From positions 124,001 through 188,000 of the forward strand of contig DATENU010000009.1 of assembly GCA_035274845.1 (NCBI GenBank): DNA of 64,000 nt, given 5' to 3'. The position numbers and the translations under genes are program-made. This document shows, piece after piece, positions 3,570 through 21,438 of this stretch; the stretch's first letter is position 1, and every line of letters starts with the position of its first letter. The DNA comes from Chthoniobacterales bacterium (GTDB lineage Bacteria; Verrucomicrobiota; Verrucomicrobiia; Chthoniobacterales; UBA10450). The notes beneath the pieces are model-generated. The model saw only the letters and a program-made list of their open reading frames with translations, did not search any database and was not told the DNA's origin.

Positions 3570-4207
3570 GGGAAATCGACCCGCAGCGTCGAGCCGCTCT
3601 GGAGGTCGACGGGATGCTGGCGGGTGGTCCGGCTGTCTACCCAGGCCTTGAGCGTATAGTGGCCGGCAGGGAGCCCGTCGAGGCGATAATGCCCATTGTT
3701 ATCGGTGACCGTAAAATGCGGCGTGGCCAGGACCAAAAGGAGGGCCCGCATGTGTTCGTGGATATCGCAACGCAAAGTTACGAGCCCGGGCACATCGAAG
3801 ATTTGGAACGGAATAGGTCTTTCGTCAGGCCGATATCGTCCCAGGTCGAAACGTTTGGCGGGCGAGTAGGAAAAAATGTTGTGATACGTGTCTTTTTCGA
3901 GATTCGGGAATTCGACCTTCGTGCCAACCTGCACGGCGAGCAGGGCGGGAGTAAACGTTAAGTCTTTCTGGGTGATTTGTTTTGTGGGCAAGGCCGCGGG
4001 CTTTGAGAACGATCCTTCGAGATAGACCACGCCGATCGGAGGATTGGTTGCGAGCACGCCCCCGGTGGAAACGATTTCATAACGCTTGGTCATCACCGGA
4101 GCGGAATGCGACTTGGGCAATTCGACGCGCCCTTCCACTGAGGCTTGGGCAGCGAGGAATCGCACGCCAGCGGCCAGGAGAAAACAGCAAGGCAAGAGAG
4201 GGCGCAT
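3566..4207 (-). CDS. Secreted cupredoxin-like protein with carboxypeptidase-regulatory-like domain
   Basis: This 213-residue protein has an N-terminal signal sequence (to about residue 20). The middle is a blue-copper-type fold: ligand candidates are His109 in DTYHN and Cys147, His150 and Met153 in CDIHEHM, a CxxHxxM arrangement typical of type I copper sites. The last ~50 residues (FTVTDNNGHYRLDGLPAGHYTLKAW region) resemble a carboxypeptidase regulatory-like/Cna-B-type beta sandwich. This two-part layout is common in proteins annotated as methylamine-utilisation-like cupredoxins. It is the first gene of an operon with the histidine kinase, which it overlaps by ATGA. Its promoter region is shared divergently with the gene starting at 4448. 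It may act as an electron carrier or as a copper-binding input for the kinase. Confidence 0.75.
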   Translation of the reverse strand: MRPLLPCCFLLAAGVRFLAAQASVEGRVELPKSHSAPVMTKRYEIVSTGGVLATNPPIGVVYLEGSFSKPAALPTKQITQKDLTFTPALLAVQVGTKVEFPNLEKDTYHNIFSYSPAKRFDLGRYRPDERPIPFQIFDVPGLVTLRCDIHEHMRALLLVLATPHFTVTDNNGHYRLDGLPAGHYTLKAWVDSRTTRQHPVDLQSGSTLRVDFP

Positions 4208-4245
4208 ACAAATACAATCGCGTCAGGTAGGCCGGGCGGTCACAG

Positions 4246-4260
4246 AAAGTAAATTACTTT
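4246..4260. promoter_or_regulatory. AAAGTAA-A-TTACTTT palindrome in divergent promoter region
   Basis: A perfect 7+1+7 palindrome lies in the intergenic region between the cupredoxin operon (start 4207, minus) and the repeat-protein gene (start 4448, plus). Its arms match the outer part of the palindrome at 4355-4376, and a half site AAAGTAAC follows at 4291-4298. The position and symmetry suggest an operator for a dimeric regulator. The regulator is not identified. Confidence 0.45.
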
Positions 4261-4354
4261 TTCAGGCAATCACTAAATAAAAAGCCGGCAAAAGTAACAA
4301 CTCCCGGCGCCGGCTGGACGAGCCGGGGCGGAGGATTACCGAGGGGAAATTGCC

Positions 4355-4376
4355 AAAGTAACAGCCGCGTTACTTT
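4355..4376. promoter_or_regulatory. AAAGTAAC-N6-GTTACTTT inverted repeat, candidate operator
   Basis: Perfect 8-bp arms separated by 6 bp lie 72 bases upstream of the start codon at 4448. The core GTAAC-N6-GTTAC recurs at 6729-6744 upstream of the second large secreted protein that carries the same C-terminal domain pair. A shared transcription factor for the two genes is inferred. Confidence 0.5.
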
Positions 4377-4447
4377 TAATCATGTTTTACGTAAAAACAT
4401 TCCTTGTCTCGAACCTTTTCCGGATTAAAGAGAACGCTCCAATTACT

Positions 4448-6586
4448 ATGAAAACATTCAGACTTCTCCTCCGTCTTCTTTTCCTCCTGCCAATCTCCTG
4501 GGGCGCGCTCCAAGCGCAGGTCGGAACCGATTTCACCATCATCGCCGATGACACTCAGCCGGCCTTTCAAAACGGCTTCGGCACCTATCCGTCGATCAGC
4601 GATGACGGAACAGTGGCGTTCGTCGTCGATCAAGGCGGCACATTCCGGGCGGCTCCCGGCCAGGCGCCGGTGCAGGTGGGTGGAAGCGTCACCGGCGATC
4701 CGTTCATCAACAAGCTGGGTGAGATTGCGTCACGCCAATATGTGGACGCTTTCCTGACCACCGAGCTCTACAAGAACACGGCCGCCGGCCAAACCGTGTC
4801 GCTGATTCGCAACGATGGCGAATTTCGGCAGTTCGGATTGCCTGTGCATCTTTCGTCCACCGGGACCGCCGTTTTTTGGGCACGGAAAAATCCGGTCAGC
4901 CCTGGCCATTGGGGAATTTGGACGGCCAACGGCGGCGGCACCACGAACCTCGTCGTCGACAATCTGGGCATTTTCAGCGTGTTCGGCAATTCGCCAACAA
5001 TCAACAGTGCCGGGACGGTTGCGTTCACCGGCGGCAAGGATCCCGTCAATAACGTAGCCGAGAGCGGATTGTATATTGGCACCGGCGGCGGTGACGCCAC
5101 GGTCAGCACGGTTCTTACCGCGGCGGGAAGCCCGCTCTACAATTGGGACGGCGCTCCCTATATCAACGATCAGGGCCAGATCGCCTTTAAGGCTTACGAG
5201 GACAACTCCGGCGAGCCCGGCATCTTCGTCGTCAACCAGGACGGAACCGGTCTGCGCATGGTCGCGCATGCTGCCGGTATCGGTGGAGATGGACCCTATT
5301 CCATGTTCGACAGCCCGATCATCAACGAGCTCGGCACGGTTGTGTTCCGGGGCTACCTCGACACGGGGGAGCACGGCATCTATTCCGGGCCAGACCCCGT
5401 CGCCGACAAGGTCATTCAGGAAGGCGATGCGCTTTTCGGATCCACTCTCACGAGCGTTTTGTTTCTGCGCGGGCTGAACAACCACAACGAGATTGCCTTT
5501 TACTTCGAGCTCGCCGACGGCCGCACCGGGATCGCCAAGGCGAAACTCGCGGCCCCAAGCCCGACGCCTACGCCGACGCCTATGCCCACCGCGACTCCGA
5601 CTGCTACGCCATTGCCTTCGGCTACTCCGCTGCCGACAGCAACGCCTCTTCCGACCGCGACGGCAACACCAGCTCCCACCGCGACGCCAACTGCGTTTCC
5701 AACTGCCACTGTTGCGCCGACGGCGACGCCAGCCCCAAGCGCGACTGCGACGCCGAGCGCTACGCCGGTCGCGACCGCAACTCCGAGCCCGTCGTCAACT
5801 CCTTCGACAGCCGCTCAACCGCTCAACATTGCAACCCGGGGTCGCGTTGAGTCGGGAGACAACGCCATGATCGGCGGATTCATTATCAACGGCTCGAGCG
5901 CAAAGAAAATCGTGGTCCGGGCCATCGGGCCCTCGCTCCAGGGAATGCTCCCCGGCGCGCTCACTGATCCCGTCCTGGAGCTTCGCGGCTCCGACGGGGC
6001 GCTCATTCAACAGAACGACAATTGGAGAGATGACAACGCTCAGGCTTCGTTCCTGGAAGCGAACAATTTTGCGCCCTCTCATCAATTCGAGTCAGCGATG
6101 GTCGTGACCCTGGTGCCCGGAAGTTATACCGCAGTGGTGACCGGAAAGAACGGCTCTACCGGCGTCGGCCTCGTGGAAGTCTATGACCTGAACCAGGCGG
6201 CAGACTCGAAGCTGGCGAATCTCAGCACCCGCGGCGTGGTTCAATCCGCCGACAACGTGCTCATCGGAGGTTTCATTCTCGGCGGCGGCAGCGCCAACAC
6301 GAAAGTGCTGGTGCGTGCGATCGGTCCCTCGCTGGCGAATTTCGGAGTGAACAATGCCGTGAGCGATCCCACCCTGGAGTTGCGCGACAGCAACGGCGCA
6401 TTGATCCGAAGCAACGATAACTGGAAAGACGAGCAGTGGACTGAGATCGAAACGACAGGTCTCTCTCCCGCCATGGATGCGGAGTCCGGCATCATCGCCG
6501 ACCTTCCGGCGGGCGCTTACACGGCCATCGTCGCCAGCAAAGGCGCGAACGGCGTTGGACTCGTCGAGATTTACAACCTGCCGTAA
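4448..6586 (+). CDS. Secreted NxxGxxAF tandem-repeat protein with Pro/Thr linker and C-terminal domain pair
   Basis: This is a 712-residue exported protein. Residues 1-24 form a signal peptide ([19 protein letters not shown]...). The ATG at 4448 was chosen over one at 4382 because the signal peptide begins there. About 350 residues follow with repeats of the type INxxGTVAF / INDQGQIAF / INELGTVVF, matching the choice-of-anchor NxxGxxAF repeat family. A low-complexity TPTPTATP linker spans roughly residues 369-454. The last ~257 residues are two copies of a domain with [13 protein letters not shown], DPxLELR and GVGLVEVY motifs. The same pair ends the protein at 6827-11341. The role is probably extracellular or surface-attached; no enzymatic motif was seen. 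Confidence 0.8.
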
Positions 6587-6619
6587 GAGCGATTCCAAGT
6601 TAGCCGGGCCTTCTGGTAA

Positions 6620-6684
6620 GCCCTCATCCTGAGCTTCTTCCACGGGGATTGAACTCCGTCCGTGGAAGAGCCTGGGATGAGGGC
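6620..6684. repeat. Long imperfect inverted repeat (hairpin) between two secreted-protein genes
   Basis: Outer arms GCCCTCATCC (6620-6629) and GGATGAGGGC (6675-6684), and inner arms TCTTCCACGG (6636-6645) and CCGTGGAAGA (6660-6669), can pair into one interrupted hairpin. It lies 33 bases after the stop of the upstream gene. It may be a REP-like element or act as a transcript end. There is no U-tract, so a classical rho-independent terminator is less likely. Confidence 0.5.
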
Positions 6685-6728
6685 CTTATCGTGCCTTGGC
6701 GGATTCAGGTTCGCCTCCCGTTTCAAAG

Positions 6729-6744
6729 GTAACAAGCGTGTTAC
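6729..6744. promoter_or_regulatory. GTAAC-N6-GTTAC inverted repeat, candidate operator
   Basis: The core arms match the site at 4355-4376 (same arm sequence, same 6-bp spacer). It lies about 83 bases before the ATG at 6827. A further GTTACC half site occurs at about 6810-6815, next to the ribosome binding site. Co-regulation of the two large secreted proteins is inferred from this. Confidence 0.45.
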
Positions 6745-6826
6745 TAATGCCGGCTTGTTCCAAGCGGGTTTGACGCGCTCGATGGCCTCGGCGCAAACGA
6801 ACTACCTTCGTTACCAAAGGAGCCTT

Positions 6827-9800
6827 ATGAAAACAAAAAGCGTATTTGGGATTCTCCAATCAGCGCTTGAGCAACGCGGCCGGAGCCTGGCTTTCGTCGT
6901 CCTCTTTCTGGCCGCTTCCACCCAAGCAATCTTCGCGCAAGGCAGTCCTGACATCGTCTGGCAGGGTACCCACACCGGCTATGTCAGGTACACCGCCTTT
7001 TCGCCCGATGGTCAGCAATTGGCCTCGGGAGGGGACGACAAGAAAAACAAGCTTTGGCAAGTGTCGGACGGGACCTTGCTCCGGACGATCACTCAATGCA
7101 GCGGGCTTAGTTGCAGCAGTCCTACTTTTGGAACCTACTCTCCCGACAGCCAGCAACTGGCTACCTCTGGAATCAAATTTTGGCGCCCCTCGGACGGCAC
7201 TCTCCTCCGGACGTTAAGCCTTGGAGGAACCATCGCCTTCTCGCCGGACTGGCAATTCATCGCCTCGTCGGTAACGACTTCGAGTTATCCTTCCCAGAAC
7301 CGAACGATCAAACTGGTCCGTGCCTCCGATGGCTCCGACGTCTGGTCGAAGCCGAACTTTGGCGGAGGCGCGACCGCTTTTTCTCCGGACGGTCAATCGA
7401 TCGCATCGATCGGTTTCCAGGGGGTCGACATTTTGCGGGTGTCTGACGGCACGCTCATTCGCAACATTGTCGGTCCGCGCGGAACTGCTCTCGCTTTCTC
7501 CCGGGACGGCCAGTTCATCGCGGCTAATGGCGGCGCCGGCGGATCTTATCGTTACGACGAGACAATCAAAATCTACCGCGTGTCCGATGGCGCGCTCGTT
7601 CGCACCTTCACCGCCACGGGTACTGTGACCTCCATTGTCTTTACGCCCGATGGCCAGACGATGATCGCGAGCTCCTGGGATTCGAATGAAGATCCCGTGA
7701 ACGGATTTATTCCCGCGACCGGCACGATCAGGTTCTGGCGAGTTTCGGACGGCGCTCTGCTCAAGACTTACGATCAGAATACCGGCACGTCGGCGAACGC
7801 GCTGGCTGTTTCGCCTGATGGGCAAAGGTTCAGCTACTCCCATGATTCCACGGTTTTTGTGGCGCGCATTCCCACCTTCTCCTGCGCTTTCTCAATTTCT
7901 CCGACGAGCGCGAGTCTTCCGCCCGCTCCCGGCGGCGGTTTGGTTAACGTGAGCGCGCCTGCCGGTTGTCAATGGACGGCGGTGAGCCGGGTCAATTGGA
8001 TCACCATCACCGCAGGCAACAACGGCACTGGCAATGGAACGGTCACTTATACCACCACCGGTTCGGACGGACAGACCGGTCTCTTGATCATCGCCGAGCA
8101 GGCGTTCCCCATCCATTTCGGCGATAATCCATGCGACTACACGGTCACGCCGACGAGCTCGACCTGGTCGTCCTTCGGCGGAACCGGCACGATAGGTGTG
8201 CAAACTCTTAGTGGTTGCGGCTGGACCGCTACGAGCAACGACAGTTGGATCACGATCACGAAGATCAACCATGACAGCGGCAATGGCGGCCTGACGTATG
8301 CCATCGCTCCCAACGCGGGCCCGGCGCGAACAGGCACCCTGACGGTGGCGGGCCAGACGGTCACGATCGAACAGGTGACCACTCCCTGCTCCTACACGGT
8401 GAATCCGGATCCGACCGACCCCCAATTGTATGGCAGCTCGGGAGGTCCCGGCACTATCAACATTGCGACCATGAACGGTTGTCCCTGGACGGTGACGACG
8501 GATTCGAGCTGGATAACCCTCGGGGTAGGAAATAGCAGCGGCAATGGGCCCTCGATCGTGAACTATTTTGTAAACGCGAATACCACCACCAGCACTCGCA
8601 CCGGCACCATCACCGCGGGCGGACAAGTGATCACGATTTTCCAGGAGGGGATCACCTGCAGTTACAACATCTCCCCCGCGAATCGCACATTCACCGCCGA
8701 TGGCGGCAGTGCGTACGTGAACATGGCCGCGGCTAGCGCCTGTAATTGGACGGCCACCAGCAACGACAGTTGGATCACGATCACCTCTGGGGGAAGCGGT
8801 TCAGGTTACGGCACCATTTATTATTCCGTCGCGGCGAACTCCACCGGTGCCCCTCGAACGGGGACCATCACCATCGTCGGCCAGACATTCACTGTCTTTC
8901 AAACCGCCGAGGCAACGCAGGGAGCGCCCGATATCTTATGGGCGCACGGACACGACTTGCAGGTTAACGCCGTTGCGTTCTCGCCCGACGGCCAGTTGCT
9001 GGCGTCGGCGAGTAACGATCACACCGTCAAGGTCTGGCGGGTTTCGGACGGCGTTTTGCTGGCCACGCTGACCGGTCATTGGGACAAAGTGAATACGGTC
9101 GCCTTCTCCCACAATGGCGAAATGATTGCTTCGGGCAGCACGGATATGTCGATCAAACTCTGGCGCGTCTCAGACTTTTCGCTGATCCGAAGCATGGGAA
9201 GCAATGAGTTCATTCTGGGAGTAGCCTTCTCGCCGAATGACCAGGAGCTAACGTCCGGCGGGGGCTATTCCACGAACGACATCAAAGTCTGGCGCCTCTC
9301 GGACGGACAAAACACGTCGATCACTCATGACATGTTGGGATCGACCAACTCGGTGGCCTACTCTCCGGACGGCGGATTCCTGGCCACGGCCAAGGCTAAT
9401 GAAGTTGCGACCTTGAAAAATTTCGCGACGTGGAATGTGGCGTGGCTGGGCCACCGTGGGACAGTGAATTTCGTCGCCTTCTCGGCCGATGGCCAAAAAC
9501 TGGCAACCGCGAGCGACGATGGTTCAGCTGCGCTTTGGCAGGTCGCGAGCAGCATGCAACTCGCCAGTCTTAACGGTCCTTCCGGTTTCGTGAAGTCGGT
9601 TGGATTCTCACCCGATGGCCAGACCGTCATTGCGGCGGGGCAGGATTATGGGGCGCAACGCGGGACCCTTCTCTTCTGGCGCGCCTTGGATGGCGGATTG
9701 ATAAGAGCTTACGTCCAGCAAACATCCACCGCCGTTTATTCGGCGCAATTTTCACCGGACGGCAATTCGTTCGCCTATGGCCGGGCCGACGGCGGTGTGG

Positions 9801-11341
9801 TCCTGGCCCGCAACACTCTCAATATCGCGCCGACACCGACACCGATCCCCACCGCCACGCCAGTGCCAACCGCCACGCCCGTGCCGACGGCAACCGCGAC
9901 GCCAACTCCAACCCCGATCCCGACTGCGACTCCCTGCACTCTGGAGAGGATTGTGGATGGAGGCTTCGAAAATGGCGGCATTCCCAACATGTTCTGGGAT
10001 CCGGAAACCTCCACGAACTTCGAGACGCCGCTCTGCGACAGCGAGTCGTGCGGCAATGGCACGGCGCCGCGGACCGGTCTGGTCTGGGCCTGGTTCGGCG
10101 GAATTTCCGCGCCCGAGACCGCGACACTGGGGCAAACCGTTACCATTCCCGCGGGGAACCCCGCAACGCTCTCCTTCTGGATGCGCATCTCCGCGGTTTC
10201 TTCGCCATTCACCGATGTCCTGAACGTGAAAGTGGATGGGACGATCGTGCAGACTTATCCCGAACCGGCCACGGCCGAGACTGCCTACACGCAGCGCACC
10301 ATTAACCTGAGCGCGTTTGCCGACGGAGCCGCGCACCAGATTCTGTTCGAGTATATCGCAACGACGAACGGAATGGCGAATTTCGTAGTCGACGATGTGT
10401 CTCTTATCGCCGGGACATGTCCTGGGCCGACCCCAACTGCGACCCCGGCGCCAACCGCAACGGGAACTCCCGCGCCAACTCCACCGGCGACGCCGACACC
10501 GAGCGCTACTGCGGCCCCAAGCGCGTCACCATCACCATCCCCGAGCCCGACTGACACCCCGTTTTCCGCAGCTCAGCCGCTCAACATCGCTACCCGAGGT
10601 CTCGTGCAAGCGGGCGACAACGCGATGATTGGCGGGTTTATCATTACCGGAAACGCGATCAAGAAAGTTGTTGTTCGGGCGATCGGTCCCTCGCTCCAGG
10701 GAATGCTACCCGGCGCGCTGACTGATCCGCTTCTGGAACTGCACGGCCCCGATGGTTCGCTCGTCGGGCAGAATGACAATTGGCGCGACGACCCTTCGGC
10801 TGCCGAACTGGAAGCAAGTCAGATTGCCCCGTCGAACGATCTCGAGTCCGCCCTCGTGATCGCTTTGTCGCCCGGAAATTATACCGCGGCAGTGAGGGGG
10901 AAGAACGGAGCTGTCGGGGTTGGGCTCGTGGAAGTTTATGATCTGAGCCAGGCAGGCGATTCGAAACTCGCAAACATCAGCACCCGGGGCGTTGTTCAAT
11001 CGGGCGAGAACGTCATGATCGGCGGTTTCATTCTGGGCGGCAGCAGCGGCAGCACAAAGGTGCTGGTGCGCGCGATTGGTCCCTCCCTGGCCAATTTCGG
11101 CGTCGCCAACGCCTTGAGCGATCCGACACTGGAACTGCGCGACAGCAACGGCGCCATGTTGCGGAGTAACGACAACTGGAAAGACCAGCAGCAGCGTCAA
11201 ATCGAAGCGACCGGCCTCGCTCCCGCGATGGATTCGGAAGCGGCGATCGTCGCCGACCTTCAACCGGGCGCCTACACCGCCATCCTTGCCGGTAAAGACG
11301 GAACGGGCGTCGGCCTGATCGAAGTCTACAACCTGCGCTAA
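6827..11341 (+). CDS. Giant secreted WD40/BACON multidomain protein
   Basis: This 1504-residue protein starts at the ATG preceded by AAAGGAG; the in-frame upstream extension has no signal peptide. After a signal peptide come a WD40-type propeller (about 42-350, repeated FSPDGQ and LWRVSDG motifs) and four BACON-type domains (about 354-696, motif CxWTAxSxDSWITIT). Then come a second WD40 propeller (700-990), a TPTPTATP linker, a jelly-roll-like module (about 1037-1198, beginning NGGFENGG-like and ending VVDDVSL) and a second Pro/Thr linker. The two-copy [13 protein letters not shown] domain pair ends the protein. BACON domains are often carbohydrate- or mucin-binding. The protein is probably an extracellular binding scaffold; no catalytic residues were recognised. 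Confidence 0.85.
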   Translation: MKTKSVFGILQSALEQRGRSLAFVVLFLAASTQAIFAQGSPDIVWQGTHTGYVRYTAFSPDGQQLASGGDDKKNKLWQVSDGTLLRTITQCSGLSCSSPTFGTYSPDSQQLATSGIKFWRPSDGTLLRTLSLGGTIAFSPDWQFIASSVTTSSYPSQNRTIKLVRASDGSDVWSKPNFGGGATAFSPDGQSIASIGFQGVDILRVSDGTLIRNIVGPRGTALAFSRDGQFIAANGGAGGSYRYDETIKIYRVSDGALVRTFTATGTVTSIVFTPDGQTMIASSWDSNEDPVNGFIPATGTIRFWRVSDGALLKTYDQNTGTSANALAVSPDGQRFSYSHDSTVFVARIPTFSCAFSISPTSASLPPAPGGGLVNVSAPAGCQWTAVSRVNWITITAGNNGTGNGTVTYTTTGSDGQTGLLIIAEQAFPIHFGDNPCDYTVTPTSSTWSSFGGTGTIGVQTLSGCGWTATSNDSWITITKINHDSGNGGLTYAIAPNAGPARTGTLTVAGQTVTIEQVTTPCSYTVNPDPTDPQLYGSSGGPGTINIATMNGCPWTVTTDSSWITLGVGNSSGNGPSIVNYFVNANTTTSTRTGTITAGGQVITIFQEGITCSYNISPANRTFTADGGSAYVNMAAASACNWTATSNDSWITITSGGSGSGYGTIYYSVAANSTGAPRTGTITIVGQTFTVFQTAEATQGAPDILWAHGHDLQVNAVAFSPDGQLLASASNDHTVKVWRVSDGVLLATLTGHWDKVNTVAFSHNGEMIASGSTDMSIKLWRVSDFSLIRSMGSNEFILGVAFSPNDQELTSGGGYSTNDIKVWRLSDGQNTSITHDMLGSTNSVAYSPDGGFLATAKANEVATLKNFATWNVAWLGHRGTVNFVAFSADGQKLATASDDGSAALWQVASSMQLASLNGPSGFVKSVGFSPDGQTVIAAGQDYGAQRGTLLFWRALDGGLIRAYVQQTSTAVYSAQFSPDGNSFAYGRADGGVVLARNTLNIAPTPTPIPTATPVPTATPVPTATATPTPTPIPTATPCTLERIVDGGFENGGIPNMFWDPETSTNFETPLCDSESCGNGTAPRTGLVWAWFGGISAPETATLGQTVTIPAGNPATLSFWMRISAVSSPFTDVLNVKVDGTIVQTYPEPATAETAYTQRTINLSAFADGAAHQILFEYIATTNGMANFVVDDVSLIAGTCPGPTPTATPAPTATGTPAPTPPATPTPSATAAPSASPSPSPSPTDTPFSAAQPLNIATRGLVQAGDNAMIGGFIITGNAIKKVVVRAIGPSLQGMLPGALTDPLLELHGPDGSLVGQNDNWRDDPSAAELEASQIAPSNDLESALVIALSPGNYTAAVRGKNGAVGVGLVEVYDLSQAGDSKLANISTRGVVQSGENVMIGGFILGGSSGSTKVLVRAIGPSLANFGVANALSDPTLELRDSNGAMLRSNDNWKDQQQRQIEATGLAPAMDSEAAIVADLQPGAYTAILAGKDGTGVGLIEVYNLR

Positions 11342-11360
11342 CCGCCACTTCTCTAATCGA

Positions 11361-11395
11361 ACCGGCCGCATCATCTGATGCGGCCGGTCTGTTTT
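11361..11395 (+). terminator. Rho-independent terminator after the WD40/BACON gene
   Basis: A perfect 13-bp stem (ACCGGCCGCATCA at 11361-11373, with its complement at 11376-11388) is followed by CTGTTTT. It lies 20 bases beyond the stop codon and ends the transcript of the 4.5-kb gene. Confidence 0.85.
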
Positions 11396-11526
11396 ACTGC
11401 CCGAATCGAGAGCCAAACGGTTCGGAGGCGTCCCCGATTTTTGGGTTGAGTAAATTCGGGAAAGTTCGCAAGGATCGACTTTCAGTTCGTAAACCTCCCC
11501 GACTCAACGCTGACCCCACAAAGAAA

Positions 11527-12609
11527 ATGAAAATGAAATATATTGCACTCTATTCACTCCTGGGCGCCCTCGCTCTCCTCGCTCCAGCACCCGCTATCGC
11601 TGTCCCACCGCGGCCTCTCGGCGATTCGAAAGTGCTCACGCCGCTCCCCGCAGTGCCCGGATACCCTGAAGGTATCGCGGTCCACGACGGCCTCGTTTAT
11701 GTTTCCGGACCCGCGGCCTTCGGCGTTCCCGGCAACTTCGGCCCATCCAAAATTTTCGCCTACGATGAGGACACGGGCGTTCTCGTGAAGACGATCACGA
11801 TCCAGGGCCAAACCGGCCCGCTCAACGCAATTTCGTGCATCGCGTTTGGCGAAGGAGACAACCTCTTTGTCGCGGATGAAGGCCAGGGGATCTTGAAAAT
11901 CAATGTCGAAACCGGAGAGCAAAGCGTCTATGCCGCGCCGTTTTACCCGGTGTATCAATCCGCCTTCAACCCTCCTGCCCCGCTCCTGATTAACGATCTG
12001 GCGTTCGACAAAAATGGTTACCTCTACGTGACCGACTCCTTCCAGGCGACCATCTGGCGAGTGCCTCCGGGAGGCGGCGCGCCCCAGGTCTGGTTCCAGA
12101 ACGCCGCCATCGATGGGCCATTCGGCCCGAACGGCGTCCGCGTCGATAAGAAAAGCGAGAAGCTTTACTTTACGGTGACGTTCGACGGCGCCGGGGTGGG
12201 TTATGTTTACACTCTGCCGTTGATCGATCATCCGACTTTGATGGATCTGCACGTGTTTCACACCTACAACTTCGCCGATACCGGTTCCGGCCCGGATGGA
12301 ATCGCGTTTGGCAAATCAGGCGACCTCTACGTCGCGCTCGCGGGCACCAGCAAGATATCGGTTCTCCGTGAGGACGGGACCGAGGAAACGAAGTACAGTG
12401 GCCCGGCCCAGAACCCCGCGGATCCCGCCCACAATCCTCTACCCTGGGCCAATCCCGCCAACATCGCATTCAACAATAAGACTAAAAGTCTGCTCGTTAC
12501 GAACCACGCCAGTCTCACCGGTCTGCCCGATCCGAGTTTCCTCTTCGCGATCTTCGACGTCTTCGTGAACGACAAAGCCGGCAAGCTGTTCAAGGACGAC
12601 GAGGACTAG
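11527..12609 (+). CDS. Secreted SMP-30/gluconolactonase-like beta-propeller protein
   Basis: The predicted 360-residue protein begins MKMKYIALYSLLGALALLAP, a clear signal peptide; in-frame codons upstream lack one. The mature part has spaced propeller motifs such as PEGIAVHDGLVYVSG, INDLAFDKNGYLYVTDS, GPNGVRVDKKSEKLYF and PDGIAFGKSGDLYVAL. These are typical of SMP-30/strictosidine-synthase-like or NHL-type propellers. It ends in an acidic tail (KDDED). Enzymatic activity is uncertain because no metal-site residues could be assigned with confidence. It stands alone between a strong terminator and a convergent NTPase gene. Confidence 0.7.
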   Translation: MKMKYIALYSLLGALALLAPAPAIAVPPRPLGDSKVLTPLPAVPGYPEGIAVHDGLVYVSGPAAFGVPGNFGPSKIFAYDEDTGVLVKTITIQGQTGPLNAISCIAFGEGDNLFVADEGQGILKINVETGEQSVYAAPFYPVYQSAFNPPAPLLINDLAFDKNGYLYVTDSFQATIWRVPPGGGAPQVWFQNAAIDGPFGPNGVRVDKKSEKLYFTVTFDGAGVGYVYTLPLIDHPTLMDLHVFHTYNFADTGSGPDGIAFGKSGDLYVALAGTSKISVLREDGTEETKYSGPAQNPADPAHNPLPWANPANIAFNNKTKSLLVTNHASLTGLPDPSFLFAIFDVFVNDKAGKLFKDDED

Positions 12610-12618
12610 AACGGAGTT

Positions 12619-12637
12619 GCCTTCGCGGAACGAAGGC
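12619..12637. terminator. Short hairpin between convergent genes
   Basis: A 7-bp stem GCCTTCG / CGAAGGC with a 5-base loop sits in the 36-base gap between the propeller gene and the convergent KAP NTPase gene. It could end transcription in either direction, but there is no long U-tract. Confidence 0.4.
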
Positions 12638-12645
12638 CAAAATAG

Positions 12646-15600
12646 CTAAAACGAGAAGCGTCCGACACGGTCGATCCACCACCGCCAATCCACCGGGGTT
12701 ACCAGCCCCAAGGGTAAATTCGTCCCGGTGCGAATCGCATTGTGCAGTTCCGCAAACTCCGGAACTGCCTGTAATTCTGGCGGCGGAGTCGTCCGCCACC
12801 CATCGTCTTTCTGCAACGCCGTAAACAGATCGCGCGCCAGTGCCGGGAACCCCGCCGCCACGGCAAGCAGCAGCATTGCTGGGCGGCAGCGTTCCGCCAT
12901 GTCCGCGCCAGGCGGCAGTTTATCTGCTGGTAACTCATCGAGCCCGGCACGCACCAGGCGATACGTATTGAGTAATCGTTTCACCGCCCGCGGCGTCCGG
13001 ATAAAAGATGCATACTGCTGGAGCGCTTCGATCTCCTTCGAACTCAGCCGCACGCTCTGCGGTGGAGGGTCGGCGGAAGGCGTCAAAGAATCCGCGACGT
13101 TTCCCGTCTTCTTTTCCACGAACTCTTTCGGCTCAGCGGTGGCCCGCCCATTCGTGGGCTTCGAGTCTGCGGCCGCGGAAGTTGTTGATTGGCGTGGTGG
13201 GGGCTCCGCACCGATTTCAGCGACCGCCGCTGAGCCTGCGCCCTTGTCTTCCTCCGTGAATTTGGTGAGCTCGACGACCAACTCGCGATAGCCTGTGTCC
13301 TCCATTCGAGGCAGATGAAACGGCACGTGAAAGATCTTTTCCAGGTAGTCCAACGGAGTCGCCGATCGCTCTCCCGCGATCGCCGTCGTCGCTCGCCGAT
13401 GCCTACCGGACTTCTCGTCGAGGAGCTCCGGATAGTGCTGGCGCAAGCTGCGTTGTAGCCATCGCGGATCCACCGCTACCACCACCACGAAGAGCGGAAA
13501 GGCAAGGAGCAGGTGCACAGCCTCCAACACCTCCACTACCCGCTTTGCCGGACACCGATCCAAATCGTCCACATACAGGATGATCCTGTCCACTGCTGCT
13601 TCCAGTGTCCCCTCCACCTTCGGCTCCATTCGTCCTTCCGTATGTATCTCCGCGAAGAGATTACTGAGTGTCTCAAAGTCCCGCCGGACCAGACTTACGA
13701 GCCCGAGATGCTTGCGATAGTCGTCGGCTTTGGCCCGATCCCCGATAAACTTCAATAAGCGGCGTTCCGGCTCCTGCTCCCGGAGCTCGTCTTCTAACGC
13801 GCGCACGCGCGCCTGCGCATCGACCAATCCCTTCTCAGCTGCGTTCGTCACCACCTCGGCCGCTTTCAGTGCATCCCGCATTCCCACGATTTCCGGCGTT
13901 TCAGCTCGCTTCTTTATCGCCGCCGAAAGGCGACGGTCGAGTTGCTCGGCATTCCCCAAGTACTTCTGCGCTCTTTGCGCCCAGAACGCCAGACATGCTC
14001 CAACGGTCGTCAGCCACCCGCTGACTGCCCCCGTTATGCGTCCTACCTTTTCCATCCCTTCATGCCAGCTCCCAAGCACATGCCCCACTGCGCTGCCGAG
14101 GAAAGGCACCACTACGAGCGCCGCCACGAGGACGATCACCGTTCGCGCCCGCCGCTCTGGGCTAAACGCGGTTTCCCAGAGCACCTGCGCGCGCACACCA
14201 AGCGAGCGCGTTTGCGCGATTTGTGCCCGCAGCCCTGTGGCCGATGTTTCCAGCTCGCCCCAACCAAGCCGCTGGCATAATTCCCCCCAACTCCGCATCA
14301 ACTCCTTACCCTCTGGAGTTTCCTTCACGATCTCGATCAGGGCCCCCGCCTCATCCAACTTACCCGCCAGCGTCAGTCTTTTCTTATCTCGAACCTTCTG
14401 CGCTTTCCAGAGCTTCCACCTCGCCAGTCGCTCGGTTACCTTCGCGCGCCGAACTTCATCTTTCGCCTTTGCCGCAGCTCCCTTCTCCGACTCCAGCTTC
14501 CTCAACAGCTCATCCTTCTTCTCCTTCGGCGTCTTTTCGTCGCGGTCGATACTCTTGAAAAGCTTCTCGAAGATCTCCGTCACCAGACTCGCCCAGAGGT
14601 TGGCATCCAGGTAGTGCCATGCGTTGAATGGCACAGTCACCACCCGCTGGCACCACGGTGAGCCCGCTCGATTCGCCTGCGCCCGCATTTTCTCCCGAAG
14701 GAGCCGCATAAAATGCGTCTTTCCCGTGCCCCAGTCTCCAAAGAGTCCCAACGAAAGCGGTAGCGGGGTTTCTCTCGCCCCCATCATTTCCGCCAGGTGT
14801 CGGGCATAATCACCCAGCTTCAGTGCATCCGGCACTGCTGTCTCCTTCCCCGCGACTTCCGGCGGCGGCACATCGCTCTGGAAAAGTGCAAACGAGCGCC
14901 GGCTCACGTGCAATGGCGCTGGCGAAGGCGTGGGCGCTATTTCTGGTTGCGGCAACTCACGCCGCAGACCGCGCTTCCGGAGCGTGTCAGCCGCGGGAGC
15001 GTCAACCGACAGTACACCAAAGAGCAAATGGCGTGGCAGGACAGCGTGGGTTTTTTCTGATCGAGCCAAAACGAGGCCAAAGCCCAGGCCCGCCTTGGCG
15101 CCGCCGGACAGCACTGGCAGCGCTGCCGCTTCGCCGGATTCAATGCGGATATTCTCGAGAGTAATCGGAATCTTAAACTCGCTCTGGTGCAAAATTGACA
15201 GAAGCTCCGGCAAATCAATTCTCGCTTTTTTAAAAGCCTCTAATACGAGGGGATCGTTACTTTGATGGAGCGCCGCAATGAGATGCTCGGTATGCACGTG
15301 CCGCTGCTTAAGCATTTTGCGGAAGGCGTTCGCCCATCCCAGAATGCGACGCGAACCCGCGGAAAACTGATCAATGGTAAGGGGTGGAGCGTCTATGCTG
15401 TTAGCCGCGGGATCTTTTTGCTGGGCTGCTTCGGTGGGCTCCTGCGTTGAAGTGGTAGAATCCCCGGGCAGTTCCTCCAACGCCTCCTGGCGGAACGAGG
15501 CTTCGGCAGCGCTTAGTTGGGCGATCATCCTCCGTGCCTCCTCTGGGAGGTCCGCCTCCGTCCTAAACCGATTCCGAATTTGCCGCTGATCGCTCGCTAA

Positions 15601-16275
15601 AGCCTCCGCTACCTCTGCCTTCTGGTCCGGGAGCAAACTTCCCTCCTGCGATTGAAGGATTTCCGCCACCATGTTTCTCGAGGTTAGCTCAACGCCCCAC
15701 TCACGTAATAGCGCATCATCTCGCTCCTCCTGGGGCTCAGAAGTCGCCTCGTCGGAGATACGGGCGCCCTCCCGCTCTTCGCTCTTATGATCCCTCCGGG
15801 GTGGTTGCGTTTGCTGAGGATGGGGCATTTTCTCATCGCGAAGCTTCGCGAGAACAACGCGAACAAATTCCCTTATCTTCTGGTGTTGCGTCTCTGCTGG
15901 ATAGCTATTCAGTGGCCGGGTCTCATCGAAGATCATGCTGTTGGCCACACCTGGGAACTTGCGCCAATCGCACTCCTCTACCACAAGGGAAAAAAGCGGC
16001 ACTCGAAGCTGTTGGAGGTGCTTGACGTCCTCTCGCACCACCGGCGAGTTGAGGCTGTGAGACGAGAGCACGAGGATAGCTCCAGCGGCTCGCTTCTGCG
16101 CTTCCTGTATCTCCGTATCCCAGTCCGACCTTAACGGAAGACTTTCTCTGGACGACCAGATATTGAAGTCCGATCCTGCCTGCGCTTCCAATTCGCGATG
16201 AAACCGGTACCACAATTCCGCGTCTTCGTCCGCTGCAGCGATGTAGATGAGCCGTGGGGAGGAGGGAGCGTTCAT
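12646..16275 (-). CDS. TIR-like / Clp-N-like / KAP family P-loop NTPase
   Basis: This large protein has ~1209 residues from the ATG at 16275; an in-frame ATG 24 codons upstream adds a non-conserved extension. Residues ~7-125 look like a TIR fold (RLIYIAAADED, then ILVLSSHSLNSPVVREDV). Residues ~302-440 resemble a double Clp-N domain (RHVHTEHLIAALHQ). The NTPase has a Walker A GDWGTGKT at ~513-520. It also has two hydrophobic helices around 715-755 inserted before the Walker B ILYVDDLDRCP near residue 900. An insertion of membrane helices within the P-loop domain is the KAP hallmark, and KAP proteins include the phage-exclusion protein PifA. A defence or stress-sensor role is inferred. The gene is monocistronic and flanked by unrelated genes. 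Confidence 0.8.
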   Translation of the reverse strand: MNAPSSPRLIYIAAADEDAELWYRFHRELEAQAGSDFNIWSSRESLPLRSDWDTEIQEAQKRAAGAILVLSSHSLNSPVVREDVKHLQQLRVPLFSLVVEECDWRKFPGVANSMIFDETRPLNSYPAETQHQKIREFVRVVLAKLRDEKMPHPQQTQPPRRDHKSEEREGARISDEATSEPQEERDDALLREWGVELTSRNMVAEILQSQEGSLLPDQKAEVAEALASDQRQIRNRFRTEADLPEEARRMIAQLSAAEASFRQEALEELPGDSTTSTQEPTEAAQQKDPAANSIDAPPLTIDQFSAGSRRILGWANAFRKMLKQRHVHTEHLIAALHQSNDPLVLEAFKKARIDLPELLSILHQSEFKIPITLENIRIESGEAAALPVLSGGAKAGLGFGLVLARSEKTHAVLPRHLLFGVLSVDAPAADTLRKRGLRRELPQPEIAPTPSPAPLHVSRRSFALFQSDVPPPEVAGKETAVPDALKLGDYARHLAEMMGARETPLPLSLGLFGDWGTGKTHFMRLLREKMRAQANRAGSPWCQRVVTVPFNAWHYLDANLWASLVTEIFEKLFKSIDRDEKTPKEKKDELLRKLESEKGAAAKAKDEVRRAKVTERLARWKLWKAQKVRDKKRLTLAGKLDEAGALIEIVKETPEGKELMRSWGELCQRLGWGELETSATGLRAQIAQTRSLGVRAQVLWETAFSPERRARTVIVLVAALVVVPFLGSAVGHVLGSWHEGMEKVGRITGAVSGWLTTVGACLAFWAQRAQKYLGNAEQLDRRLSAAIKKRAETPEIVGMRDALKAAEVVTNAAEKGLVDAQARVRALEDELREQEPERRLLKFIGDRAKADDYRKHLGLVSLVRRDFETLSNLFAEIHTEGRMEPKVEGTLEAAVDRIILYVDDLDRCPAKRVVEVLEAVHLLLAFPLFVVVVAVDPRWLQRSLRQHYPELLDEKSGRHRRATTAIAGERSATPLDYLEKIFHVPFHLPRMEDTGYRELVVELTKFTEEDKGAGSAAVAEIGAEPPPRQSTTSAAADSKPTNGRATAEPKEFVEKKTGNVADSLTPSADPPPQSVRLSSKEIEALQQYASFIRTPRAVKRLLNTYRLVRAGLDELPADKLPPGADMAERCRPAMLLLAVAAGFPALARDLFTALQKDDGWRTTPPPELQAVPEFAELHNAIRTGTNLPLGLVTPVDWRWWIDRVGRFSF

Positions 16276-16368
16276 ACCGCGGCGATAGTGAGATCCGGTT
16301 GTGGCGCGATCCGGGACGCTTCGGCTCTCAGCCACCGCCTTAACCACGAGAGTCTAAATACTCCTTCG

Positions 16369-16398
16369 GGCTCGCCGTCAATCTCAAAGCGGCGAGCC
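16369..16398 (-). terminator. Hairpin downstream of the ADOP permease pair
   Basis: A 9-bp stem (CGGCGAGCC / GGCTCGCCG) with a 12-base loop lies 18 bases past the stop codon of the permease gene at 16416. No U-tract follows on the minus strand, so the terminator role is tentative. Confidence 0.4.
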
Positions 16399-16415
16399 TA
16401 ATGAGCTCGGCCCGA

Positions 16416-18920
16416 CTACTCTGCCCGCAGCGCCACCATCGGGTTCACCCGGGTGGCGCGGCGGGCGGGGACAAAGCAGGAAATCGCGGCGACGAGGGTG
16501 AGCAGGCCGGAGACGACGAGGTAAATGGTGGGATCGAGCGGCTTCACTTTGAACAGGATGTTTTGCAGGGCGGCGGCCATGAGCACGCCGAGCAGGAGCG
16601 CGGCCGCGCCAACGCCGAGAACGAGACCAATGCCCAGCTGCCAGGCGCCTTGTTGCATGACCATGCTGAAGATGCGCTTCGCGTCGGCTCCGAGCGCCAT
16701 CCGAATGCCGAACTCCTGCGTGCGTTGATTCACCGAGAAACTCATGACGCCATAGAGGCCGACGCCGGATAGAATGAACGCCACGACCCCGAAGATGCTG
16801 AAGAGAGTCGCGATCACGCGATTGCCGGAGAGGATGTCGTTGTGGAACTGCGCGGGCGTCCCGGGGAAATAGGTGGGCAGATTTGAATCGATCTCGGCCA
16901 CGGCTTTGCTGAGGAGCGGGCCAAGGGTGTCGGCGCGCAGACCGCCCCGCGGCCTGACGACCACGGTCGCGAATTGGGTGGCCGGCGAGGCGCCCAGCAG
17001 CGGCATGTAGAAGCCAGCCGCTTCCGTCTTCTGGTCGAACGGCCCCTGCATCAACGTGTCGGGCACGACGCCGACGATGGTGCGCCACGGTTGTTCCTTG
17101 CCGGGATTGAAAATGCGCAGCTGATGTCCAATCGCGCTTTGCTGGCCCCAATGTTTTCGAGCGAAACTCGCGTTCACCATCGCGATTGGTTGTTTCGCGT
17201 CGCTGTCCTCGATGGTGAAATCGCGGCCCTCGCGAACCGTCAGGCCAAGCGTGGCAAAATAGCCGTCGGAAACGGATTCGAAATTGCAGGTCGGACGATC
17301 GCGGTCGGTGAGATAACTCTGACCATCGACCTCGTATTGTCCGCTGGGCGCGAAAGTCATCCGGAAACGGTCCGTCATGGCGGCGGCTTCGAACTGCGGA
17401 TTCTGGCGCAACGCCCGCACCGCCCGGGTGAAGAAACCGCGGCGCGATTCTTCGTTCGGGTAGGTTCCTTCCATCAGGGCGAGGCGCGCCGCATAGAGGC
17501 TGTTCTCGTCGTAACCGTAGTCGAGCTTCATTTGATTCCGGATCGATTTGATCTGCAACGTGGCCGCGATGAGCAACGCCGCGGTCAATGCGATTTGGCC
17601 CACCACCAGCACGCGCGTGATGACGTTGACCAGCCGGCTGCTGTTCCCGCGGCCGCCTTCTTTCATCACTTCAGCGGTATTGCCGCGTGAGCTGAAAAAG
17701 GCGGGCAGCGTACCGGAGACAAGGGTCGCGACGAGCGTGAGCCCGAGGGTGAAGGCGAGCACGCGTCCGTCGATTGTAAATTTCCACCAATAGGGCGGCG
17801 GGAATGGCGCGGCTTTCACCACTTTGTCGAAGCAGTCGACACCCCAGTAAGCGAGGGCCGAACCGGCGAGCGCGCCCAGGATCGCGACGATCAGGTTCTC
17901 GGTCAGCATTTGCCTGACAAGTCGCCAGCGGGTTGCGCCCAGCGCACCGCGAATCGCCAACTCCTTCGCGCGCAGGGCTGCCCGCCCAAACTGCATGTTC
18001 ATCACGTTCACGCAGGCGATCAGCAACACCACGATGACCGCACCAAGCATGGCCCAGACGATCTGGCGCGTTTGCACGCCGGTGAAGGCCTGGATCAGCG
18101 GCAGGACCGCCGCCGAGGTGAAGTTCTGGTTCGTCTTCGGATTGTCAGCGGCAATGTTGCGCGCAATCGCGATCATCTCCGCGTTCGCCTGGTCGAGGGT
18201 AACCCCGGGTTTCAACCGGCCCATCACCGCCGGGGCGCGGGCGTTCGCGCCGAGGAAAAGTTCGCCGCGCGGTGTGGGTGGCCACTCATTGTAGAGCGGC
18301 GTCCAAAGTTCCTCTGAGACCGGGAACTCAAAGCCGGGCGGCATGACGCCGATGATGGTCGCGGCTTTGCCGTTAATGGTGACGCTCTGGCTGACTATGT
18401 TCGGGTCGGCATTAAAATCGCGGCGCCAGATTTTGTCTCCGAGGATCGCCGTCTTCGGCGCGCCGGGCTTGTTGTCTTCCGCGGTGAAATCGCGGCCGAG
18501 GACCGGCGACACTCCGATGATCTTGAAGATCTCGTCGGTCACGTACGCCCCGGTGTAACGCTGCGGGTTATTGTTGTAGGAGACGTTGATGGTCGAGCCA
18601 TTGAGATAGCCGGCCATCATCGCAAACGACTTCTGCGCGGCCTTGATGTCCTCGTAATCCTGGGCCGCGGGAATATTGCCATTGCCGAAGTTGTTGCTTT
18701 GATCGCTCCCTTTCGGGTCGATCAGGCCGACGCTGACGAGCTCTTCCGGGTGCGGAAACGAAAACCCGCGCAACACAATCGCGTTGACCACGGCAAACTG
18801 GGTCATCGCCCCGCCAATCCCGAGGGCCAGGACCAGGATGGCGAGAATACAAAACGCCTTTTCCTTGAAGAGAATGCGCAGCCCGACCCGGACGTCCTGC
18901 CGAAAAGTATCGAGAATCAT
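16416..18920 (-). CDS. MacB-like ABC permease, ADOP family (second of a tandem pair)
   Basis: This 834-residue inner-membrane protein begins DTFRQDVRVGLRILFKEKAF, with a first TM helix (LAILVLALGIGGAMTQFAVV). A large periplasmic MacB-PCD domain follows, then three further TM helices with FtsX motifs, and a second MacB-PCD plus FtsX half. It ends in CFVPARRATRVNPMVALRAE. This duplicated layout without an ATPase domain is that of the Acidobacterial duplicated orphan permeases. The partner ATPase is not in the window. It lies 19 bases downstream of a close paralogue, clearly from tandem duplication. The substrate is unknown; MacB relatives export lipoproteins, peptides or antibiotics. Confidence 0.88.
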   Translation of the reverse strand: MILDTFRQDVRVGLRILFKEKAFCILAILVLALGIGGAMTQFAVVNAIVLRGFSFPHPEELVSVGLIDPKGSDQSNNFGNGNIPAAQDYEDIKAAQKSFAMMAGYLNGSTINVSYNNNPQRYTGAYVTDEIFKIIGVSPVLGRDFTAEDNKPGAPKTAILGDKIWRRDFNADPNIVSQSVTINGKAATIIGVMPPGFEFPVSEELWTPLYNEWPPTPRGELFLGANARAPAVMGRLKPGVTLDQANAEMIAIARNIAADNPKTNQNFTSAAVLPLIQAFTGVQTRQIVWAMLGAVIVVLLIACVNVMNMQFGRAALRAKELAIRGALGATRWRLVRQMLTENLIVAILGALAGSALAYWGVDCFDKVVKAAPFPPPYWWKFTIDGRVLAFTLGLTLVATLVSGTLPAFFSSRGNTAEVMKEGGRGNSSRLVNVITRVLVVGQIALTAALLIAATLQIKSIRNQMKLDYGYDENSLYAARLALMEGTYPNEESRRGFFTRAVRALRQNPQFEAAAMTDRFRMTFAPSGQYEVDGQSYLTDRDRPTCNFESVSDGYFATLGLTVREGRDFTIEDSDAKQPIAMVNASFARKHWGQQSAIGHQLRIFNPGKEQPWRTIVGVVPDTLMQGPFDQKTEAAGFYMPLLGASPATQFATVVVRPRGGLRADTLGPLLSKAVAEIDSNLPTYFPGTPAQFHNDILSGNRVIATLFSIFGVVAFILSGVGLYGVMSFSVNQRTQEFGIRMALGADAKRIFSMVMQQGAWQLGIGLVLGVGAAALLLGVLMAAALQNILFKVKPLDPTIYLVVSGLLTLVAAISCFVPARRATRVNPMVALRAE

Positions 18921-18939
18921 TCGGTTGCCTCGAGCCGCG

Positions 18940-21438
18940 TTATTCGGTTCGCAACGCGACCATTGGATTCACCCGGGTGGCGCGCCGCGCCGGGACGAAG
19001 CAGGAGATGGCGGCAACCAAAGTAAGCAGGCCGGCTACGACGAGGTAAATCGTCGGGTCGAGCGGCTTCACTTTGAAGAGAATGTTTTGGAGCGCATTGG
19101 CCATGAGGACGCCGAGCAGAAGAGCCGCGGCGCCGCCGCCGAGTATGAGGCCGATGGCGAGCTGCCACGCCCCTTGCTGCATTACCATGCGGAAAATTCG
19201 TTTCGCATCGGCGCCGAGCGCCATTCGGATGCCGAATTCCTGTGTGCGCTGATTCACCGAAAAACTCATCACGCCATACAGACCGACCGCCGAAAGCGCG
19301 AAGGCCACCACGCCAAAGATCGTGAACAGATTCGCGGTCAGGCGATTCACGCCGAGGATTTCATCATGCAAACGCGCGGGCGTTCCCGCGAAGTAGGTCG
19401 GCAGATTGGAATCCAATTCCGCGATCGCTTTGCTGAGGGTCGGTCCCATGTTCGCCGCGACCGCTCCCATCCGGGGACGCACCACGATCGTGCAGAATTG
19501 AGCCGCCGGCGTTCCCGCCAGCAACGGGATGTAAAAACCGATTCCGTCCGATTGCCCATTGAAGGGGCCCTGCATGAGCATGTCGGGCGCGACGCCGACG
19601 ATCGTGCGCCATGGCTCCGGTCGAGCCGGATTGAAGCTCCGCACCTGGTGACCGAGCGCGCTTTGATTTCCAAAATATTTGTGGGCAAAGCTCGCGTTCA
19701 CGATCGCGACCGGCTGTTTGGTATCGCTGTCTTCGATTGTGAAATCGCGGCCCTCGAGCAGCTTTAAACCGAGCGTCGTGAAATAGGCGTCCGAGACCGA
19801 CTCGTTTTGGCCGCGCGGCCGGTCCTTGTCCGTCACATAGGTCTGGCCATCCACTTCGTACTGGCCGCCGTTGGCGAAGGTCATCCGGAAGCGATTAGTC
19901 ATGGCCGCACTCTCAAACGCCGGGTTGGCGCGCAGCGCCCGCAACGCCCGCACGAAGAATTGATGCTTCGCGTCGTCGGTCGGATAATCGCCTTCCATCA
20001 ATCCCATGCGCGCGCTGTAAACGGCGTTCTCATCGTAGCCGTAATTCTGGGTCGTCTGGTTGCGGATGGATTTGATCTGCAACGTCGCCATGATCAGCAG
20101 CGCCGCCGTCAGCGCGATCTGTCCAATGACCAGAACGCGCGTGATGACGTTAACGAGCCGGCTGCTGTTGCCGCGTCCGCCTTCCTTCATCATCTCGGCG
20201 GTGTTTCCGCGCGCGCTCAGAATCGCCGGCACAAATCCGGAGAGCAGGGTCGCGACGACGACGATGGCGAGCGTGAAGATGAGGACTTTGCCGTCAATCG
20301 TGAACTGGACCCAGTAAGGCAACGGGAACGGCAGCGCGTTGGTGGTGCGAACCAGGAGATTGACGGCCCACTCCGCGAAGAGGATTCCAACCGTTCCGCC
20401 CATCGCCGCGAGGAGAAAACTTTCGGTTAACATCTGGCGAACCAAACGCCAGCGAGTGGCGCCGAGCGCGCCGCGGATCGCGAGCTCCTTCGCGCGCAAC
20501 GCGGCGCGGCCGAACTGCATGTTCATCACGTTTACGCAGGCAATCACCAGCACGAGCGCAACCGCCCCGAGCATGGCGTAAATTGTTCCCCGCAGTTGGG
20601 GGCCGGTGAATGAATTCAGCAAGGGCTGAACCCTGGCCGCGGTCAGGTGCTCGTTCGTCTTCGGATTGTCTTTCGCCATTCGTTTCGCGATTGAGGAAAA
20701 TTCGGCGTTCACCTGGTCGAGCGAGACGCCATCCTTCAGGCGGCCAATCATTTGGGGAGCGGAATTGTTCGCCCGGGGGTCTTCGCGAGGAACCAACGGA
20801 AACTCGTTGTAAAGCGGCACCCAGAGTTCTTCCGAGATCGGGAACTTAAAGCCCTGCGGCATCACGCCGATGATCGTCGCCGCCTTGCCATTAATCCGAA
20901 CCGATTGGCCGACGATGTTTGGGTCCCCGCCGAAATCGCGCTTCCAGATTTCGTAGCCGAGGAGCGTCGTCTTCTCGGCCCCCGGCTTGTTGTCATCGGC
21001 GGTAAAATCGCGGCCCATGATCGGCGCCACGCCGACGATCCGGAAAAAGTCCTGGGTGACGTAAGCGCCGGTATAACGCTGCGGGTTATTTTTGTAGGTA
21101 ACGTTGATCGTCGAGCCATTGAGATAGCCCGCGGTCAACGCGAAGGAATTCTGGCCGGCCTTGAGATCTTCGTAGTCCGCTGCCGTTGGGATGAAACCCT
21201 GGCCGAAATTATTCTGCTGCGGGTTCGCCTGCGGATCGAGAATCCCCGCGCTCATCAATTGCTCCGGATGCGGGAAGGAAAATCCGCGGAGGACGAAGGC
21301 ATTCACGATGGTGAACTGGGTGGTCACGCCGGCTATGCCGAGCGCGAGGACGAGGACAGCGAGAAGGCAAAACGCCTTTTCCTTGAAGAGAATGCGGAGA
21401 CCAATCCGGACATCCTGGCTGAAGGTATCGAGGATCAT
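18940..21438 (-). CDS. MacB-like ABC permease, ADOP family (first of a tandem pair)
   Basis: This 832-residue protein has the same layout as its downstream neighbour: MacB-PCD, FtsX, MacB-PCD, FtsX. The two are near-identical over the TM segments (GQIALTAALL, SVNQRTQEFGIRMALGADAKRIF, FKVKPLDPTIYLVV). They are more divergent in the periplasmic parts, for example the stretches after LYNEW / LYNEF. That pattern suggests diversification of the substrate-facing surface after duplication. There is no ATP-binding motif, and a separate ATPase must power it. It is the first gene of the two-gene unit; no upstream partner is adjacent. Confidence 0.88.
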   Translation of the reverse strand: MILDTFSQDVRIGLRILFKEKAFCLLAVLVLALGIAGVTTQFTIVNAFVLRGFSFPHPEQLMSAGILDPQANPQQNNFGQGFIPTAADYEDLKAGQNSFALTAGYLNGSTINVTYKNNPQRYTGAYVTQDFFRIVGVAPIMGRDFTADDNKPGAEKTTLLGYEIWKRDFGGDPNIVGQSVRINGKAATIIGVMPQGFKFPISEELWVPLYNEFPLVPREDPRANNSAPQMIGRLKDGVSLDQVNAEFSSIAKRMAKDNPKTNEHLTAARVQPLLNSFTGPQLRGTIYAMLGAVALVLVIACVNVMNMQFGRAALRAKELAIRGALGATRWRLVRQMLTESFLLAAMGGTVGILFAEWAVNLLVRTTNALPFPLPYWVQFTIDGKVLIFTLAIVVVATLLSGFVPAILSARGNTAEMMKEGGRGNSSRLVNVITRVLVIGQIALTAALLIMATLQIKSIRNQTTQNYGYDENAVYSARMGLMEGDYPTDDAKHQFFVRALRALRANPAFESAAMTNRFRMTFANGGQYEVDGQTYVTDKDRPRGQNESVSDAYFTTLGLKLLEGRDFTIEDSDTKQPVAIVNASFAHKYFGNQSALGHQVRSFNPARPEPWRTIVGVAPDMLMQGPFNGQSDGIGFYIPLLAGTPAAQFCTIVVRPRMGAVAANMGPTLSKAIAELDSNLPTYFAGTPARLHDEILGVNRLTANLFTIFGVVAFALSAVGLYGVMSFSVNQRTQEFGIRMALGADAKRIFRMVMQQGAWQLAIGLILGGGAAALLLGVLMANALQNILFKVKPLDPTIYLVVAGLLTLVAAISCFVPARRATRVNPMVALRTE

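Follow-up and report, generated by a model that had tools for sequence, protein, structure and literature searches.

A single gene of a Chthoniobacterales bacterium encodes a protein that joins a TIR domain, a Clp-N double domain and a KAP P-loop NTPase with a membrane insert, in this order. The gene is located at 12646-16275 on the minus strand of the window, i.e., the whole stretch of 64,000 nucleotides that was analyzed. It lies within an accessory insertion, and its KAP half recurs with exchanged N-termini in distantly related bacteria. With moderate confidence, we regard the protein as a single-gene, membrane-tethered defence switch that resembles NLR and AVAST proteins and uses a KAP NTPase as motor in place of a STAND NTPase.

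Domain architecture of the protein

The reading frame is single and uninterrupted (1,209 aa, ATG at 16275, stop at 12646), and all NTPase motifs are kept along its length. The ATG has no clear Shine-Dalgarno sequence. An alternative GTG at 16347, with AAGGAG 13 nt upstream, would extend the protein by 24 aa. The GC3 of 0.67 is just slightly under that of the neighbouring genes and gives no sign of a recent foreign origin. A perfect inverted repeat, GGCTCGCCG...CGGCGAGCC, is present at 16366-16395, in the spacer that separates the gene from the permease stop. The sequence-only reading of the protein as a three-domain fusion proved right in Pfam scans.

The N-terminus, described in that reading as TIR-like, surely has the flavodoxin-like TIR fold (residues about 8-147; 15835..16254, minus strand). 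Pfam TIR_2 matched residues 10-104 in the whole-protein scan with an E value of 5.1e-7 and 30.7 bits, above the cut-off of 28. An AlphaFold2 model, built from a two-row alignment and with pLDDT values mostly of 70-85 within the domain, has the beta-alpha order of secondary structure elements typical of the TIR fold. The top Foldseek matches of the model were SPARTA TIR-APAZ, RPP1 and RUN1. VIA-align gave Z scores in the range of 12-15, including SPARTA, with 15.4 over 132 residues for the plant-NLR TIR of RUN1 and 12-13 for AbTir and SARM1. Viral contigs contained no match to this TIR domain.

The helix at the position of the catalytic glutamate reads SLNSPVVREDVKHL. In an ungapped alignment to a better-conserved relative, L013 (EYQRRELEQA), Asp83 occupies the glutamate position, and a comparison by eye with PdTIR (EWPQKELDGL) gives the same register. 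The catalytic position could thus be located, but its residue is an aspartate, to which Glu82 is directly adjacent. Among the relatives, as judged by eye, L006 has an arginine at this position, and L013, L032 and L008 have a glutamate. Because of Asp83, the NADase activity of this TIR domain is uncertain, and the proposal that TIR is the output via NAD+ cleavage is not supported in the form in which it had been made. For the same reason the main rival explanation makes the TIR domain an adaptor with weak or absent catalysis. In this case, a ring of KAP domains would cluster the TIR domains to recruit a separate TIR effector encoded elsewhere, and the protein would be a sensor or scaffold and not the killer. 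The aspartate and the arginine in L006 fit this explanation, while the glutamate is retained in three other relatives; however, the adjacent Glu82 could serve instead, and no partner gene was found among the annotated neighbours in the window. We consider the adaptor role somewhat unlikely.

Of the two Clp-N repeats that had been proposed, the first is firm (residues about 304-365; 15181..15366, minus strand) and the second is weaker, but likely (residues about 385-440; 14956..15123, minus strand). In the whole-protein Pfam scan Clp_N appeared in two stretches at an E value of 0.024 and 15.2 bits, under the cut-off of 20.7, whereas the isolated segment exceeded this cut-off (PF02861, 27.6-27.8 bits, E 3e-6). 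In a Clp_N search of the own genome, the protein scored 20.7 bits with neighbours, which equals the curated cut-off; apart from it, just two Clp ATPase-type open reading frames in the assembly matched. With phmmer, repeat 1 (HVHTEHLIAAL) matched Hsp104 (5d4w, E 1.5e-4) and, weakly, ClpC N-domains. For repeat 2 the evidence comprises the second Pfam stretch, an identity of 31% with the relative L073 across both repeats, and an hhalign comparison of the window protein plus L073 with the genome's own two Clp N-domains, which covered both repeats at an E value of 9.5e-5 and a probability of only 59%. The helix order in the AlphaFold2 model is compatible with two four-helix repeats, at pLDDT values of 26-41. 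No Clp-N fold emerged from a second look with VIA-align, which is uninformative for this poorly modelled part.

The KAP NTPase comprises residues 490-1109 (12949..14808, minus strand; PF07693, E 2.3e-32). Walker A (GDWGTGKT, residues 513-520, 14716..14739) and Walker B (DDLDRC, residues 903-908, 13552..13569) are kept across the family. They are 390 residues apart, counted from 513 to 903, and the insert between them is predicted to form long helices. Two membrane helices had been claimed at this place; one is clear in the window copy (residues 708-737, 14065..14154, KD 2.65), and the other is a weak hydrophobic segment at approximately residues 744-763 (13987..14046), which stays below the threshold of 1.5 here and is present in several relatives. 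At least one membrane segment was found at the same place in all 14 relatives scanned. Such insertions between Walker A and Walker B have reportedly been known from KAP NTPases since a 2004 description by Aravind. The solved structure nearest to the KAP model in VIA-align is the heptameric RdrA of RADAR (Z 16.7 over 349 residues, rmsd 5.9), at a modest model confidence (pTM 0.47); Foldseek with the KAP plus Clp-N model returned nothing below an E value of 0.001. QatA is likewise a KAP NTPase; it assembles as a heptamer or octamer and binds to DNA (PMC13279940). By analogy with RdrA and QatA, a ring assembly of the KAP half is plausible.

A constant KAP half with exchanged N-termini

The KAP half of about 740 aa is rare and scattered; it is shared by about 30 loci, which represent six phyla or more. 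A single scan of 84,980 species genomes yielded 11 relatives, and plasmids yielded eight. In five sampled groups, relatives were present in 3/387, 3/289, 2/286, 3/295 and 7/296 genomes, with the starting genome of each group counted. The distribution is patchy, with at most seven matches per sampled group of 286-387 genomes. No close homologues exist among 213 genomes of the host order, and no relatives were found in phage genomes; viral contigs contained one distant KAP protein (L018). The KAP half aligns from end to end across the family, including the motifs FNAWHYLD, YIDDLDRC and LEKIF, and identities outside of it are low.

In front of this half, very different modules occur. TIR domains are found in L006, L008, L013 and L032, in L013 together with a SLOG-like domain, and SLOG-like N-termini were recognized by eye in L037 and L060. 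Further N-termini are a caspase with WD40 repeats (L009), a papain domain (L012), WD40 alone (L034 and other actinomycetes), two PG_binding_1 domains plus Clp-N (L073), and, below the respective cut-offs, Mrr_cat (L007) and an EVE-like domain (L062). A trypsin-like N-terminus of L004 was seen by eye, and Pfam gave no match. L073, which is assigned to the actinomycetes because it came from a search centred on Streptomyces, has no TIR domain and is the only other relative with a clear Clp-N module. The combination that had been called unusual is not a one-off architecture as far as the KAP half is concerned, but clear Clp-N modules are confined to two members. Clp-N domains were also suspected by eye in rhizobial and Albimonas N-termini; they are not claimed here, because neither Pfam nor hhalign gave support.

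In a tree of the KAP half the window protein groups with L004 and L008, both from Verrucomicrobiota, with a support of 96/100; the N-terminus of L008 is a TIR domain and that of L004 is different. The resolution of deeper forks is poor, and caution is needed because of long branches. The KAP genes of L008 and L060 are split between frames, possibly by a frameshift or an assembly error, and the SLOG-like plus HEAT-like part of L060 is in a different frame. In the Streptomyces relative L009 (L009:8228-13003), WD40 repeats precede the KAP half and are also present inside its variable loop.

The constant KAP half and the exchanged front end suggest a bacterial immune switch.

Genomic context of the gene and its relatives

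The gene lies in an accessory insertion of 12 kb (4208..16415), the flanks of which are conserved in congeners. It is absent from all seven genomes of the same genus that were compared. In one of these (G124), only about 100 bp (L050:10836-10937) separate the permease matching 16416-18920 from the genes matching window positions 559-4207, versus 12.2 kb in the window. Other genes fill the site in G125, G126 and G129, and the cargo of G129 includes a DUF2971 gene that matches the PADLOC candidate PDC-S31. Synteny was observed on both flanks, in L050 and L053, and thus the assignment of the site is independent of the many permease paralogues. This MacB/FtsX (ADOP-like) permease (16416-21438) has 27 matches in the genome at E values below 1e-100, and similar expansions are present in congeners.

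The annotated neighbours in the window include no defence genes and do not form a defence island; the other genes scanned encode a histidine kinase, SGL/NHL proteins, MacB/FtsX permeases, a PQQ propeller and TGT. The latter, a queuine tRNA-ribosyltransferase, is fused to Methyltransf_30 in one open reading frame according to Pfam (24415-26481). The neighbouring WD40 gene (6662-11341) was considered as a partner and was rejected, because congeners without the KAP gene also contain relatives of its C-terminal part.

Several relatives adjoin defence genes. L004 is accompanied by a trypsin-like gene, a PDC-S14 gene and HsdR of a type I restriction-modification system. Its trypsin-like gene (L004:12863-14809) lies downstream of the KAP gene, next to the DUF4357/PDC-S14 gene, an arrangement that recalls nuclease-protease pairs (PMC12799240). 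L037 lies immediately behind HsdR/M/S-type genes and is followed by a GIY-YIG gene, and L060 adjoins a DruE-like (Druantia-like) helicase and a TIR gene. Plasmid relatives are found next to genes for SIR2, deoxyribosyltransferase, DarT/macro, DUF4062 and DUF2971 proteins and integrases; DUF4062 is described as a TIR-like NADase in defence (PMC13174449). No obvious defence genes are present among the neighbours of L006, L009, L010, L011, L013 and L073. The window locus and several homologues are thus accessory or defence-linked, and the homologues are not confined to conserved, non-accessory loci.

The proposed defence switch and known systems

The defence reading is based on the TIR, caspase, papain, Mrr-like, SLOG or WD40 N-termini carried by the same KAP half, on the defence genes next to several relatives, and on the accessory locus and patchy distribution. 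The proximity of the KAP model to heptameric RdrA, the oligomeric QatA and the TIR fold with a Z score of 15 add to the reading as a switch. The KAP half would be anchored to the membrane through the helices inserted in the NTPase fold. Upon an invasion cue, perhaps bound by Clp-N, the KAP core may assemble into an ATP-dependent ring and cluster the N-terminal TIR domains. The clustered TIR domains would act by induced proximity, either by NAD+ cleavage or by a TIR signalling assembly, and the infected cell would be stopped. The most likely role of the Clp-N pair is to bind a cue, either a peptide or a protein, or to restrain TIR. The domains, the membrane segment and the accessory site are observed; ring assembly, the trigger, the Clp-N role and the output of the switch are parts that we infer. 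Asp83, the non-defence neighbours in the window, the six relatives without defence neighbours, the modest KAP model and the rmsd of 5.9 to RdrA speak against it. A single-gene, membrane-linked defence sensor, as the sequence-only reading had it, is retained as likely, with the accessory locus and the membrane insert. The parts of that reading in which TIR is the output and Clp-N senses unfolded or foreign protein are not supported as they stood.

The resemblance of Clp-N to Hsp104 and ClpC N-domains and the membrane anchoring would also suit a stress or protein-quality device, in which Clp-N would bind proteins that misfold at the membrane or reach it misfolded, KAP would remodel or sequester them, and TIR would give a non-lethal signal. 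This is improbable, since relatives replace the front end by caspase, papain, WD40 or Mrr-like domains, several of them adjoin defence genes, and the gene is accessory in a patchy family. Still less probable is an ordinary KAP NTPase to which domains were fused by chance, with an unknown role and no coherent function: the low identities outside KAP and a clear Clp-N pair shared with L073 only would fit, but the long open reading frame retains every NTPase motif and the same effector classes recur across the family.

The defence switch shares with AVAST (Avs) and bacterial NLR-like STAND proteins a swappable N-terminal effector on a constant P-loop NTPase, the defence context and the single gene. 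Avs proteins have a central P-loop NTPase, a swappable N-terminal effector (protease, nuclease or TIR) and a C-terminal TPR sensor. In contrast, the NTPase of the window protein is a KAP NTPase with a membrane insert, a C-terminal TPR sensor is lacking, and no STAND family is among its Pfam matches. PifA is a KAP NTPase linked to phage exclusion. The PADLOC model of PifA was partially matched (59.8 bits), but only in parts of the domain, with the best stretch at 17-117 of 720 model positions and without full-length similarity, and the model has neither TIR nor Clp-N. QatA of QatABCD is a KAP NTPase in anti-phage defence, but it also lacks TIR and Clp-N, and the window protein reaches 93.4 bits on NCBIfam NF041923 versus a cut-off of 600. 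The matches to PifA and QatA are at the domain level only. For RdrA, the best fold match, the value is 11.4 bits on NF041743, again versus 600. Neither QatBCD genes nor an RdrB deaminase were seen among the annotated neighbours in the window, and no full-length model of PADLOC-DB 2.0.0 fits the family.

The idea that KAP can stand in for STAND is not new, because two papers already describe systems with TIR, caspase or trypsin effectors in which a KAP ATPase can take the place of the STAND NTPase (PMC8195603, eLife 2021; PMC10907252, on DGR targets). Those systems differ in having death-like/EAD adaptors or DGR-diversified CLec sensors, and the passages concerned make no mention of Clp-N together with KAP. 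A junction of KAP and Clp-N was not found in the literature searched, which left out most subscription papers. ClpN repeats also occur in rare fusion proteins of FtsH ternary systems (PMC7159879, eLife 2020), but there the partner of ClpN is vWA and not KAP or TIR.

More tentatively, and at somewhat less than even chances, the family may represent immune receptors built on a membrane-anchored KAP ring, in parallel to NLR/AVAST, with one conserved motor, at least seven kinds of N-terminal modules (TIR, SLOG, caspase, papain, Mrr-like nuclease, WD40 and PG-binding/Clp-N), and Clp-N pairs as an immune sensing or coupling module. If so, KAP would be a further NTPase class, beside STAND and MoxR, that serves as constant motor of modular, membrane-tethered bacterial immune receptors, and the Clp-N substrate-binding domain would possibly have an immune use. 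The family is defined well enough for cloning and direct testing of its members. The same genome encodes a second, distant KAP protein (G000:C22; L038:5988-9371, minus strand), in which an N-terminal membrane helix and YCF48/BNR-type repeats precede the KAP domain.
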